Assembly: GCA_025062415.1 (NCBI GenBank) | Contig: JANXAH010000189.1 | Coordinates: 1-34,743 of the forward strand | DNA length: 34,743 nt | Direction: 5' to 3' | DNA from: Anaerolineae bacterium | GTDB taxonomy: Bacteria > Chloroflexota > Anaerolineae > B4-G1 > DUEL01 | Shown here: piece after piece, positions 4,569 to 27,486 of the stretch | Layout of the letters: the number at the start of each line of letters is the position of its first letter | Numbering within the stretch: the stretch's first letter is position 1 | Made by a program: the position numbers and the translations under genes | The notes under the pieces: generated by a model | Told to the model about the DNA's origin: nothing | Database searches by the model: none | Seen by the model: only the letters and a program-made list of their open reading frames with translations

Positions 4569-4610
4569 AAGAGCCCTTTGCGGCGACTTCATCGCCGCAA
4601 AGGGCTCTTT
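4569..4610 (+). terminator. Intrinsic terminator-like hairpin downstream of the UbiA gene
   Basis: Perfect 18-bp stem AAGAGCCCTTTGCGGCGA-cttca-TCGCCGCAAAGGGCTCTT; short T tract. Confidence 0.75.
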
Positions 4611-4713
4611 ATGTCTGTATAGAAAGGCTGCCGAAGGCGGCGGGGTGGGTGAGGAAATATCCTCAACATCTCCTCAAAATTTATGTCTGAACATCAGCCG
4701 TCGGCGGTTGCTT

Positions 4714-4742
4714 TTGACAAAATCACCCTTGGGTGTTATACT
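4714..4742 (+). promoter_or_regulatory. Sigma70-type promoter of rpoB (TTGACA-17-TATACT)
   Basis: TTGACA 4714-4719, 17-nt spacer, TATACT 4737-4742, about 42 nt upstream of the probable ATG. Confidence 0.85.
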
Positions 4743-4783
4743 ATAAAGTCACTGCCAGTAACGCCATACCCCAGGGGAGTGGG

Positions 4784-7700
4784 ATGATTTTGCAGATGAA
4801 TCAAAAGAAATCATACGGGCGAATTTCCAGCACGTTGGGCCTGCCGGCCCTGATAGAGGTCCAACTCAAATCCTACGAATGGTTTCGGAACGAGGGCCTG
4901 CTGGACCTCTTCACCGAGATTTCGCCGATAGAGAGTTACACCGGTAACCTGCGGCTCCATTTCCCCAGCCGGAAGCCAGAAAGTCAGGAACTGCAACTGA
5001 AGTACCGCTTCGGGGACCCGCCGCACACTCAGGCCGAGTGCCTGGAGCGGGACCTGACCTACGCGGTCCCCCTGCACGTGGAGGTCGCCCTGGAGAACCG
5101 GGTGACCGGGGAGATCCAGAAATCGGAAATCTTCCTGGGCGACTTCCCCCTGATGACCGAAAACGGGACCTTCATCATCAACGGGACCGAACGGGTCGTT
5201 GTCAGCCAGTTAATTCGTTCTCCGGGTGTCTATTTTGACCTGGAGGAGGACCGTACGACGGGCCAGCGGCTCTGTATGGCCCGCCTGATCCCTGACCGGG
5301 GCGCCTGGCTGGAGTTTGAGAGCCGCAAGACCGGCTATCTGACCCTGAAGTTCAACCGGAAGCGCACTCTACCGCTCACCATCTTCCTGCGAGCCCTGGC
5401 GGCGGTGGACGACGGCACGGGCGACTCTGTTCTCACGGAAGGGACTGACGAGGAACTGCTGAAACTCTTTGAGGACGTGGATACCTCGCCCGATGTCCAG
5501 TGGATCCTCACCACGTTCCGCCAGGAACCGAACTGGGATACCCATGGAGGGCGCTCTATCGCCGAAGAGGCGCTTCTGGAGTTCTACCGCCGGGTCCGCC
5601 CCGGCGACCTGGCAACTCTGGACAACGCCCAGGAGTTTCTGGTTGCCCAACTCTTTGACGACCGGCGGTACGACCTTCAGCGGGTGGGGCGCTACAAACT
5701 GAACCAGCGCCTGGGCCTGAACCTGCCTCTGGACCGGCGCACGCTCACCAAGCGGGACATCGTCGCCGTTGTCCAACATCTGATCCGGATCAACAACGGA
5801 ATGGAGGACGCCGACGACATAGACCACCTGGGCAACCGCCGGGTCAAGACCGTCGGCGAACTTATCCAGGGCAAACTGCGGGTGGGCCTGCTGCGGCTGG
5901 AGCGGGTCATTAAGGAGCGAATGTCCCTCCACAGCGAGACCGAGTCCATCTCTCCTCTTGCGCTCATCAACATTCGTCCTATCGTCGCTGTGCTGCGGGA
6001 GTTCTTCGGCTCCAGCCAATTGTCACAGTTCATGGACCAGACCAACCCGCTGGCGGAATTGACCCACAAGCGGACACTTTCTGCCCTTGGGCCCGGCGGT
6101 CTGCGCCGGGAGCGGGCCGGTTTTGAGGTCCGGGACGTCCATCACTCTCACTACGGTCGTATTTGCCCGATTGAGACTCCGGAGGGTCCGAACATCGGCC
6201 TTATCGGCCGTCTGGCCACTTACGCGCGCGTCAATGACCTGGGCTTCGTGGAGACGCCGTACCGGAAAGTGATCCGCTCTGTGCCCCCTGAGCCCGATAA
6301 ACTGGTGGGCGAAATCCTCCGGGAGCGAATCGTAGATCCGACAACCGGGGAAGTGGTCGCGGAGGCAGGCGTGGAGGTGACCCCCGAACTGGCAGAGCGG
6401 ATCGCCTCCCTTGGCCTGCGGGGTGAGGTGCCCATTAAGCCACGGGTGACCGGCGAAATAGTCTATCTCTCCGCCGACAAAGAGGAGCGGTACACCATTG
6501 CCCAGGCGACCACGAAACTGGACGAGAAGGGTCGCTTTCTGAACCCGCGCGTCTCTGCGCGCCGGGGCGGTGATTTCCTCCTGGTCCCGCCGGAGCAGGT
6601 GGACCTGGTGGACGTGGCGCCTTCTCAGATCGTGGGTGTCTCGGCGGCTCTGATCCCCTTCCTGGAGCACGACGATGCCAACCGCGCGCTGATGGGCTCC
6701 AACATGCAGCGCCAGGCTGTCCCGTTGCTCATCCCGGAGGCCCCGCTGGTGGGGACGGGTGTGGAATGGCATGCCGCGGTGGACTCCGGCCAGGTGGTCG
6801 TCGCCGAGGCCGACGGAGAGGTCATCAGCGTCACCAGCGACCGCATTATTGTCCTACAGGAAGACGGAACGCGCCGGGTCTACCCGCTGCGCAAGTACAA
6901 CCGGTCCAACCAGTCCACCTGTGTGGACCAGCGCCCGGTCGTCTTTAAGGGCCAACGGGTCCGCAAGGGTCAGGTTCTGGCCGATAGTTCTGCCACCCAG
7001 GGCGGCGAACTGGCTCTGGGCCGCAACGTCCTCTGTGCCTTCATCTCCTGGGAGGGATGGAACTTTGAGGACGCGATCATCATCAGCGAGAGCCTGGTCC
7101 GAGACGACAAGTTCACCTCCATCCACATTGAGAAGCACGAGACGGAGGCGCGCGATACCAAACTGGGGCCGGAGGAAATCACGCGGGATATTCCCAATGT
7201 CGGCGAGGACGCCCTGCGGGACCTGGATGAGCGGGGGATCATCCGTATCGGTGCGGAGGTTGGTCCCTCGGACATCCTGGTTGGCAAGATTACCCCGAAG
7301 GGCGAAAAGGAACTGACGCCGGAAGAAAAACTGCTGCGGGCTATCTTCGGCGAGAAGGCCCGGGAGGTCAAAGATTCCAGCCTCCGGATGCCCCATGGCG
7401 AACGAGGTAAGGTTATAGACGTTAAGGTCTTTGACCGGGAGGAGTACCGGGACCTCCCCACCGGCGTGGAGAAGATGGTGCGGGTGAGTGTGGCCCAGCG
7501 CCGGAAGATCACCGAAGGGGATAAGATGGCCGGCCGCCACGGGAACAAGGGTGTTGTCTCCCGCGTGGTGCCGATTGAGGATATGCCCTTCCTGAAGGAC
7601 GGTACACCGGTGGAGATTATCCTGAACCCCCTGGGCGTTCCAGGCCGGATGAACATTGGTCAGATTCTGGAGACCCACCTGGGTTGGGCCGTCCACCGTC

Positions 7701-8713: not shown

Positions 8714-8892
8714 GCAGATGAAGCCAACCCAGCGTTGGTTGCGGAGATGGCTCCAGACTCGCCCAGAGACGCTGCGGACAGGAAGGCCAAGGTTGAGGGA
8801 GGGACCAGGGAAGCGGTGAGGGGTTGGTATCCAGCGACGGCTGACCGACGCTTGATAAATCTGAGACGCACCTGTCCTGTCTTCCACCGAGT

Positions 8893-8920
8893 TTGACAAT
8901 TCAATGAACTGTGGTAAAAT
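8893..8920 (+). promoter_or_regulatory. Sigma70-type promoter of rpsL/str operon (TTGACA-16-TAAAAT)
   Basis: TTGACA 8893-8898, 16-nt spacer, TAAAAT 8915-8920; starts a ~120-nt leader before rpsL. Confidence 0.75.
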
Positions 8921-9050
8921 TTGCGTTCGTTGGACGGACGGCGGCTATACCTCCCGCCGTTCCCGGAAGGGAAGTTCGTGAGGAAAGGGAGGCCATCGTC
9001 GGTGATGGCCTTCCTTATGCCTGAAAGAAGCGTTCGGAAGGAGCGGAACC

Positions 9051-9515
9051 GTGCCGACGATCAATCAACTGGTTCGGAAAGGCCGAAAGCCGAAGACGAA
9101 GAAGTCCAAGGCGCCTGCCCTGCAGTATATCTGGAACTCCTTTAAGCAGCGGCGGATTCGGATGCCGAAGGGCGCGCCGCAGAAGCGGGGCGTTTGCACG
9201 CAGGTGCGGACAATGACGCCGAAGAAGCCCAACTCGGCCCTGCGGAAAATCGCGCGCGTCCGTCTGACCAATGGCATTGAGATCACCGCCTACATCCCTG
9301 GCGAGGGGCACAACCTGCAGGAGCACTCGGTGGTGCTGGTGCGGGGTGGGCGTGTGAAGGACTTGCCCGGTGTCCGTTACCACATCATCCGCGGCGCACT
9401 GGACGCGGCGGGCGTGGACGGTCGTGCCCAGCAGCGCTCCAAGTACGGCACCAAGAAGGCTGCCAAGGCTCCGGCCAAGGGCGGCAAGCCCGCGCCCAAG
9501 GGCGGGAAGAAATAG
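9051..9515 (+). CDS. rpsL: 30S ribosomal protein S12
   Basis: GTG start; [71 protein letters not shown]. Confidence 0.98.
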
Positions 9516-9607: not shown

Positions 9608-9913
9608 ATGGGGCTGGTCGTGTTGGGCGACATTCTGGATGTTCTGCGTCGCCACAAGAGCGAGTTGTCGGAGAAATACGGCGTTCGGGCCATTGGCATC
9701 TTCGGTTCCTGCGTGAGGGGGGAGCAGACTGAAACCAGCGATGTGGATGTGCTGGTGGAGTTTGACCCCGAAGCGCGAGTTAGTCTGCTGGATTTTGTCC
9801 AACTGGAAGAGCACTTAACGCAACTTCTGGGGGTGCAGGTAGACCTGGTGGAGGGGTCGGCCCTGAAACCGCGCATCAGTCAACGTGTCTTTGCAGAAGT
9901 CGTGTATGTATGA
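9608..9913 (+). CDS. mntA: MntA-type minimal nucleotidyltransferase antitoxin
   Basis: GIFGSCVRGEQTETSDVDVLVEF matches the GSX10DXD nucleotidyltransferase motif; ~100 aa; ATGA overlap with the following HEPN gene. Confidence 0.9.
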   Translation: MGLVVLGDILDVLRRHKSELSEKYGVRAIGIFGSCVRGEQTETSDVDVLVEFDPEARVSLLDFVQLEEHLTQLLGVQVDLVEGSALKPRISQRVFAEVVYV

Positions 9914-10254
9914 AACGGGAAGTTGGGGATTACTTGGCTGACATCGTTGAGGCCATGGTCAATGCTCAGAAGTTTGTGGAGGGTATGTCCTTTGCAGATT
10001 TCTGCAGAGACACGAAGACAGTTTATGCGGTGGTCCGGGCCATTGAGATCATCGGGGAGGCCGTTAAAAATATCCCGGACGATTTCCGGGCCAGATATCC
10101 GGACATCCCGTGGCGTAGTATGGCCGGGATGCGGGACAAATTGGCCCATGGGTATTTCAGCATCAGGCTGGAGAGAGTGTGGGAGGTCCTTCAAAAAGAC
10201 ATTCCAGACCTGAAGCCTAAGTTTGAAGCAATGCTTGCGCAATTTCCAAAGTAG
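9910..10254 (+). CDS. hepT: HepT-type HEPN (DUF86) ribonuclease toxin
   Basis: Helical ~114-aa protein with [13 protein letters not shown] = RX4HXY motif; [39 protein letters not shown] is typical of DUF86/HepT. Confidence 0.92.
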
Positions 10255-10270
10255 CGGTCCAAGAGGTGCT

Positions 10271-10741
10271 ATGCCCAGACGATACCGTCCACCGAAACGA
10301 GAAATAGAGCCGGACCTGCGGTACAACAGTGTGCTGGTCGCTAAGTTCATCAACAAAATTATGCGCAACGGCAAGAAGAGTGTGGCGACCCGGATTATGT
10401 ACCAGGCGATGGACATCGTCCAGCAGCGGATGAAGCGACCAGCCCTGGAGGTTGTGGAAGAAGCGGTCCGCAATGTCTCCCCGATCCTGGAGGTACGGCC
10501 CCGCCGGGTCGGTGGGGCGACCTACCAGGTTCCGGTGGAGGTGCCGCCGCATCGGCAATTGAGCCTGGCCATCCGCTGGCTCGTGGAAGCGGCCCGTAGC
10601 CGTTCCGGGCGCTCCATGGCGGAGAAACTGGCGGCGGAACTGATGGACGCCGTCAACAAGACCGGCGCCGCCTATAAGAAGCGGGAGGATACCCACAGGA
10701 TGGCCGAGGCGAACCAGGCCTTTGCACACTACCGGTGGTAA
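10271..10741 (+). CDS. rpsG: 30S ribosomal protein S7
   Basis: [39 protein letters not shown]...; true ATG at 10271 rather than the track start 10223. Confidence 0.98.
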
Positions 10742-21124: not shown

Positions 21125-21412
21125 ATGCGGGGGGTCCCGTGCTCCTATCGTAGTAGTGGCTGTACGCGATCCCCCGCCGGTGAAGTGGCATGGATTATCA
21201 CGGCCTGTTTGGTCCGTCGGCTGATCGGTGGGGAAGACGAGATTATCGCCCGACCCAATCCGGAGACGGGCCAGATTGAGAATCTGGAGGTTTTGTTTTG
21301 CACCGCCCGCCTGCTGCGGCGGGAATGGTTCTCGGTACCGGTTACAGCCGACTTGCGGCTGATTCCTTCACCAGCAGAGGTGGCTGAAGCGGCGGAAACA
21401 GACCGCCGATAA
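21125..21412 (+). CDS. Hypothetical protein or gene remnant between rplE and rpsN
   Basis: 95-aa ORF; the C-terminal half (WIITACLVRRLIGGEDEIIARPNPETGQIENLEVLFCTARLLRREWFSVPVTADLRLIPSP) looks protein-like, the N-terminus does not; no family recognised. Confidence 0.4.
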   Translation: MRGVPCSYRSSGCTRSPAGEVAWIITACLVRRLIGGEDEIIARPNPETGQIENLEVLFCTARLLRREWFSVPVTADLRLIPSPAEVAEAAETDRR

Positions 21413-24294: not shown

Positions 24295-24399
24295 CGGCAG
24301 CGATCAATGAAGCCAATCCGTCTTTCGGGGCCGCCCGAGGGCAGTTGCGATATCAGGGAGTTGTTGAACGTAGAAAAAACGACAGCGTAAGGAGCGCCG

Positions 24400-27186: not shown

Positions 27187-27189
27187 GGG

Positions 27190-27368
27190 ATGAGCCCCAA
27201 GATCTTGCAGACTGGCCCTCTTGTTTTCTGGTTTCATAGTTACGATGCTCGCTACGAAGCGCGAGCGAGTGTTCATTGGGCAGGGGTACTCCAGATGACC
27301 GAAATGATGCCAAAATCTGGTTAGAACCGGAGATTGAGGTGGCGCGGGTTGGACGTACCCTGAGATAG
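27190..27368 (+). pseudogene. Frameshifted, truncated DUF4160-family gene
   Basis: Frame 1 from ATG 27190: MSPKILQTGPLVFWFHSYDARYEARASVHWAG; continues in frame +2 as GRGTPDDRNDAKIWLEPEIEVARVGRTLR-stop. One base missing near 27274-27280 (CAT-(G)TG-GGC would restore SVHVGRGTPDDRNDAKIW). Confidence 0.75.
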
Positions 27369-27486
27369 GGAAGGGTTGCGACGAACCCTACTATGATTTA
27401 GCAATACCGTCAGTTTTGCTGGACCAGGGGGATATCTACAGGGGAAAGGTTTCTGGGTTCTTTGAGGTTCAAACTAAGGAGGTCAG

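Follow-up and report, generated by a model that had tools for sequence, protein, structure and literature searches.

A nucleotidyltransferase and HEPN gene pair between rpsL and rpsG

The DNA analysed here (the window) is one entire contig of 34,743 nt (JANXAH010000189.1; G000:C240) from a draft Anaerolineae genome of 2.70 Mb, 93% complete and in 264 contigs, whose S7 protein has "Chloroflexi bacterium isolate 626A.7" as its nearest named relative (90% identity). On the forward strand, two small genes lie between rpsL, encoding S12 (9051–9515, GTG start; TIGR00981, 219.6 bits), and rpsG, encoding S7 (10271–10741; TIGR01029, 225.6 bits), and the names of both flanking genes carry high scores in Pfam and NCBIfam. 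The upstream gene, mntA (9608–9913, 101 aa), encodes a predicted minimal nucleotidyltransferase antitoxin, and the downstream gene, hepT (9910–10254, 114 aa), a predicted HEPN RNase toxin. The hepT start and mntA stop overlap as ATGA, and spacers of 92 nt (rpsL–mntA) and 16 nt (hepT–rpsG) complete an S12–S7 gap of 755 nt; the two codirectional frames, their 4-nt overlap and both spacers thus lie where a sequence-only reading of the window had put them. Under a codon model trained on ribosomal genes both score as coding (+37 and +25), and they are genuine coding genes, with chance open reading frames ruled out. Their GC3 is 63–66%, versus 78–83% in rpsL, rpsG, rplE, secY, and fusA. Further upstream, rpoB adjoins rpsL (8714–9050) without an intervening rpoC, as it does in the congeners and same-family genera that were read, and rpoC must therefore lie elsewhere.

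Profile searches place the two proteins in the MNT and HepT families, as had been proposed from the letters alone. MntA matches PF01909 (NTP_transf_2; E 5.8e-17) and PF18765 (E 9.6e-12), and HepT matches PF01934 (HepT-like; E 5.6e-31, 107 bits against a cut-off of 23.5). Among PDB entries, MntA matched 1wot in a phmmer search (E 1.5e-12), and its profile had this minimal nucleotidyltransferase as best match and also matched 8xeh; the single HepT sequence found no PDB match by phmmer, but its profile did. Both signature motifs are intact, also in agreement with the earlier reading: the GSX10DXD residues of MntA (9704–9748; G33 S34, D45, and D47) and the RX4HXY residues of HepT (RDKLAHGY, 10132–10155; R75, H80, and Y82) are invariant in alignments of the window protein with 20–21 relatives each (21–22 sequences in all). 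A single-sequence AlphaFold model of HepT reached a pLDDT of 84, and ranks 1–16 of its Foldseek search are all HepT/HEPN toxin chains of known MntA–HepT complexes, with probabilities of 0.94–1.00 but weak E-values (0.08–0.9); the MntA model was poor (pLDDT 69).

The published definition of Class I HEPN/MNT modules (PMC7641770) pairs a PF01934 (or PF08780) gene with a neighbouring PF01909 gene. The window holds such an adjacent PF01934 and PF01909 pair, with both motifs and a HepT-like helical fold, and is on these sequence and model grounds assigned to Class I, as a predicted toxin–antitoxin (TA) system of an ordinary, already known type. The NCBIfam MntA and HepT equivalogs NF047752 and NF047751 were missed (49.2 and 36.9 bits against a cut-off of 60), and we therefore do not class the pair as orthologous to that of Shewanella. 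MntA also matches the PADLOC candidate defence models PDC-S09 (E 2.9e-29), a hint at a possible anti-phage role.

The rpsL–rpsG joint in the genus, class, and phylum

The str-S10-spc-alpha gene order is among the most conserved in bacteria, with rpsL and rpsG side by side in almost all. Across 80 named genomes the median rpsL–rpsG spacer is 17.5 nt, with one other long case, in Roseobacter (L151), where the intervening 130-aa ORF (4594–4986) has a signal-peptide-like N-terminus and does not look like a TA gene. A joined S12 and S7 query against 48 genomes of the order found a long separation only in the genus of the window, and in a census of the class (150 genomes) no spacing outside the genus exceeded about 250 nt among the matches listed, except in genus g37, where rpsL and rpsG are not adjacent. 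A census of the phylum (71 genomes) yielded one family, f62, with S12–S7 spacers of 0.6–1.65 kb, in which no TA gene was recognisable; three loci of this Chloroflexota family (L230–L232) have 1.5–1.65 kb between the two genes.

The joint is readable in five congeners (G002–G006), three of which carry other TA-like genes there. The joint of G003 spans 1644 nt and holds two pairs, RelB-like/ParE and DUF433/DUF5615, together with a third, decayed one; that of G004 spans 754 nt with DUF433/DUF5615; and that of G005 spans 1007 nt with a PBECR2-like ORF (a match below its cut-off), DUF2283, DUF433, and a DUF5615 remnant. The DUF433(-DUF5615) insert is accordingly common to G003, G004, and G005 and missing from G002 and G006, whose gaps are 20 and 16 nt; insert-free relatives as a group have rpsL and rpsG only about 12–33 nt apart.

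An MntA–HepT pair at rpsL–rpsG is absent from the other congeners and the sister genera that were read, and is therefore specific to the lineage of the window. A tree of RpoB, S12, S7, and EF-G places this species beside the genus root, at ~88–89% identity to congeners that are 93–97% identical to one another. Comparing spacers across related genomes, which the sequence-only reading had suggested as a way to separate ancestral from recent insertion, indicates an insertion that is recent relative to the genus.

Chimeric assembly or binning, which would have placed a TA contig between rpsL and rpsG, had been named as a possible refutation. In favour of this, the assembly is a draft of 264 contigs, and no other genome from this species turned up. 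The two genes nevertheless lie in the interior of a coherent operon contig of 34.7 kb, with the operon continuous on both sides, and congeners carry independent inserts at rpsL–rpsG (in one case on a contig of 80 kb) and at rplE–rpsN (on a 462 kb contig), which makes a chimera highly improbable.

TA-like inserts across the ribosomal superoperon

The superoperon from rpoB to rpsI is complete in four species (that of the window, G002, G004, and G006), and every joint was compared among them. RelB-like and ParE-like genes lie between rpsC and rplP in G004. The rplE–rpsN joint holds MntA–HepT and an unknown ORF in G002, and a small unassigned ORF in G004. Between rplO and secY, G004 has a DUF4258–DUF2283 pair and G006 a DUF2283 remnant. 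The secY–adk joint carries MntA–HepT, a second MntA, and a truncated HepT in G004, and MntA–HepT in G006. Between map and rpmJ, G004 has a DUF4160–DUF2442 pair (PF13711/PF10387 in Pfam), and G006 a DUF2442 remnant with DUF433. Every one of these TA-like inserts is on the strand of the operon. The sister genera G007, G008, G011, and G012 of the same family, and G021 of another family of the order, gave no match to the insert proteins at joints within contig reach, where gaps were short.

The window itself bears one clear and two possible traces of further inserts, all on the forward strand. A decayed DUF4160 gene between map and rpmJ (27190–27419) is homologous to the intact pair of G004 (74% DNA identity over 263 nt; tblastn 1.8e-15), and no infA-like ORF was seen in this joint (27187–27486). 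A possible DUF4258 relic lies between rplO and secY (24327–24398), at the joint where G004 has the intact pair, with a weak tblastn match (E 0.003 over 24 aa). A 75-aa ORF between rplE and rpsN (21185–21412), the joint that holds MntA–HepT in G002, has a weak coding score (14) and no Pfam match; it is possibly a relic of another insert. These comparisons make mntA–hepT one among many TA-like inserts that the ribosomal superoperon carries in this genus, which points to repeated colonisation.

HepT matches number 35 in the seven genomes of the genus. In the four with a complete superoperon, 4 of 15 HepT genes fall in the ~0.97% of sequence that it occupies (0.15 expected; binomial P 1.1e-5), about 27 times the expected density, and the enrichment persists without the window genome (3 of 13, P about 2.4e-4), these values having been computed after the fact from few genomes. 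No contig with rpsG carried a HepT match in the other families of the order. Elsewhere in the genus, a downstream neighbour was called for 16 HepT genes and shares their strand in 15 cases, often with a 4-nt overlap, and modules also adjoin housekeeping genes head to tail, lying before mnmA (4-nt overlap), mutL, topA (a neighbour named from sequence reading), and metF, and directly before nuoK. The general habit, as far as gene order indicates, is insertion into operons, with the ribosomal superoperon as the most striking case. HepT lies just before mnmA in four congeners (L166, L167, L168, and L172), in three of them with a 4-nt overlap at the mnmA start; this is an old, conserved insertion. 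The second HepT module of the window genome (L070; G000:C190) stands immediately upstream of a metF-like (MTHFR) gene, in a head-to-tail run.

These wider insertions bear on a rival account, by which TA genes flow in at a high rate everywhere and the superoperon merely tolerates inserts at gene borders, with no ribosome-linked role and decay ahead. HepT and DUF433 genes are common across the genomes of the genus, so the ribosomal operon may be merely one of many accepted sites; relics are present in G005, G006, G002, and the window, and inserts also sit beside mnmA, mutL, topA, metF, and nuoK. This account is weakened by the roughly 27-fold HepT density of the superoperon and by the sister genera, which possess HepT genes yet have none in the superoperon as far as their contigs reach. 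It is also weakened by selection on the shared inserts: pairwise dN/dS is 0.037–0.105 for DUF433 and DUF5615 at rpsL–rpsG (0.06 for DUF5615) and 0.08 for the MntA common to G004 and G006 at secY–adk, and this overall range of 0.04–0.10 is close to that of ribosomal genes, so the shared inserts are old, inherited, and selected. We regard neutral accumulation as an unlikely explanation, though one with a real share of the probability. Because the mntA–hepT of the window is a single copy at its site, the dN/dS evidence covers the other shared inserts only. The DUF2283 copy of G006, with a dN/dS of 0.22 and a truncation, is decaying. The earlier suggestion that the module would be hard to lose therefore holds in part: some shared inserts are under strong purifying selection, while others have been lost or are decaying, as with the DUF5615 remnant of G005 and the DUF4160 relic of the window.

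Expression, possible role, and relation to known systems

A strong promoter-like site upstream of rpsL on the forward strand (8893–8920; TTGACA-16-TAAAAT with TG before the −10) matches 11 of 12 consensus positions and is, on this consensus match, a candidate promoter of rpsL-mntA-hepT-rpsG. After it, a consensus scan, which can miss promoters, found only one forward promoter-like site, weak (9/12) and inside hepT, and no forward terminator-like site was found between rpsL and rpsG. Without a convincing promoter or terminator of its own, the module should be read from the str-operon promoter. The scans fit the earlier proposal that neither signal is obvious and that the module is probably co-transcribed with r-protein mRNA. 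MntA contains no DNA-binding domain above a Pfam cut-off, and an Rfam search of the window matched no RNA family, so no known ribosomal leader is disrupted.

The claim that the module would break S12–S7 translational coupling is, by contrast, unsupported as worded. The rpsG gene, 16 nt past hepT, keeps an SD-like GAGGTG on the forward strand (10263–10268), 2 nt before its start, and coupling could pass to hepT. In G004, moreover, the 14 nt preceding rpsG match those of the insert-free G002, so the ribosome-binding region of rpsG survived insertion there.

The overall explanation that we consider probable is that promoterless TA cassettes have docked repeatedly between codirectional essential genes and are expressed with r-protein mRNA. 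A Class I MNT/HEPN module would have entered the rpsL–rpsG joint cleanly once the lineage had split from its congeners, and rpsL-mntA-hepT-rpsG would be read as a single mRNA from the str-operon promoter. MntA would be made first and, by analogy with the experimentally tested Shewanella and Thermococcus pairs, would AMPylate the RX4HXY tyrosine of HepT and keep the RNase off; failure of the antitoxin would leave HepT free to cleave mRNA and stop growth. Cassettes of several TA-like families would dock where short gaps separate codirectional genes for ribosomal and other housekeeping functions, sparing the downstream ribosome-binding site, and would be retained for some time, perhaps through addiction or another benefit, before decaying. 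The location would supply a strong, growth-linked promoter and make clean deletion risky for the host, and any translational coupling of S7 would now come from hepT.

Domesticated growth control is a further alternative, in which the toxin RNase has been recruited to cut its own r-protein transcript and adjust S12 and S7 output when antitoxin or ATP falls. The position of the module inside the transcript and the purifying selection on shared inserts are compatible with it, as are the studied pairs, in which HepT is an RNase that cleaves mRNA while MntA consumes ATP (PMC7641770). The same joint holds unrelated TA families, or none, in different species, which argues against one conserved regulatory role and leaves this alternative improbable. 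We give equally little credence to a broader version, in which the superoperon is a preferred TA docking region whose toxin RNases act on the transcripts that encode them, ribosome synthesis and toxin supply forming one feedback loop.

Under the docking explanation, selfish or defensive two-gene cassettes of several families at no fewer than six joints would mean that the most essential transcript is open to invasion by addiction modules, which selection can then retain. The genus offers a natural test of chromosomal TA persistence, in which TA genes elsewhere in the same genomes serve as the comparison for promoter capture and deletion risk. Operon-embedded toxins may also be expressed constantly with ribosomes, which models of TA activation must explain.

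Among known systems, HepT/MntA of Shewanella oneidensis (SO_3166/SO_3165; type VII; PDB 5yep/6m6u/7bxo) has the same PF01934 and PF01909 pair with RX4HXY and GSX10DXD. Its HepT fold matches that of the window with a Foldseek probability of 1.00 and a TM of 0.66–0.70, at about 19% identity in the fold alignment and with lengths of 133–139 aa against 114 aa. The window pair differs in its str operon location and in falling below the NCBIfam equivalog cut-offs. The HEPN–MNT system of Legionella pneumophila (8xeh/8xeo; PMC11586414) likewise combines an MNT antitoxin with a HEPN toxin, and the MntA profile matches 8xeh, but its fold match to the window HepT is weaker (TM 0.45). For the congener inserts, DUF433 has been proposed as an antitoxin of PIN toxins that is abundant in Chloroflexi (PMC2701414), and VapBC10 of Synechocystis (PIN-COG2442, DUF433; PMC3834315) pairs a DUF433 antitoxin with a PIN-like partner, as do the rpsL–rpsG inserts of G003 and G004; unlike in VapBC10, their partner is DUF5615, which is PIN-like only through a sub-threshold Mut7-C resemblance. 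Searches of open-licence papers combining TA systems with ribosomal protein, str, or spc operons found no description of such inserts, and what is new here is the repeated colonisation of the ribosomal superoperon by TA-like genes, not the module type. A precedent is the MNT–HEPN module inside the lysine operon of Thermus thermophilus HB8, absent in HB27 (Makarova 2009; PMC2701414), which likewise lies in a housekeeping operon and is missing from a close relative. That case involves one biosynthetic operon in one strain, whereas here numerous TA families occupy numerous superoperon joints across a genus.
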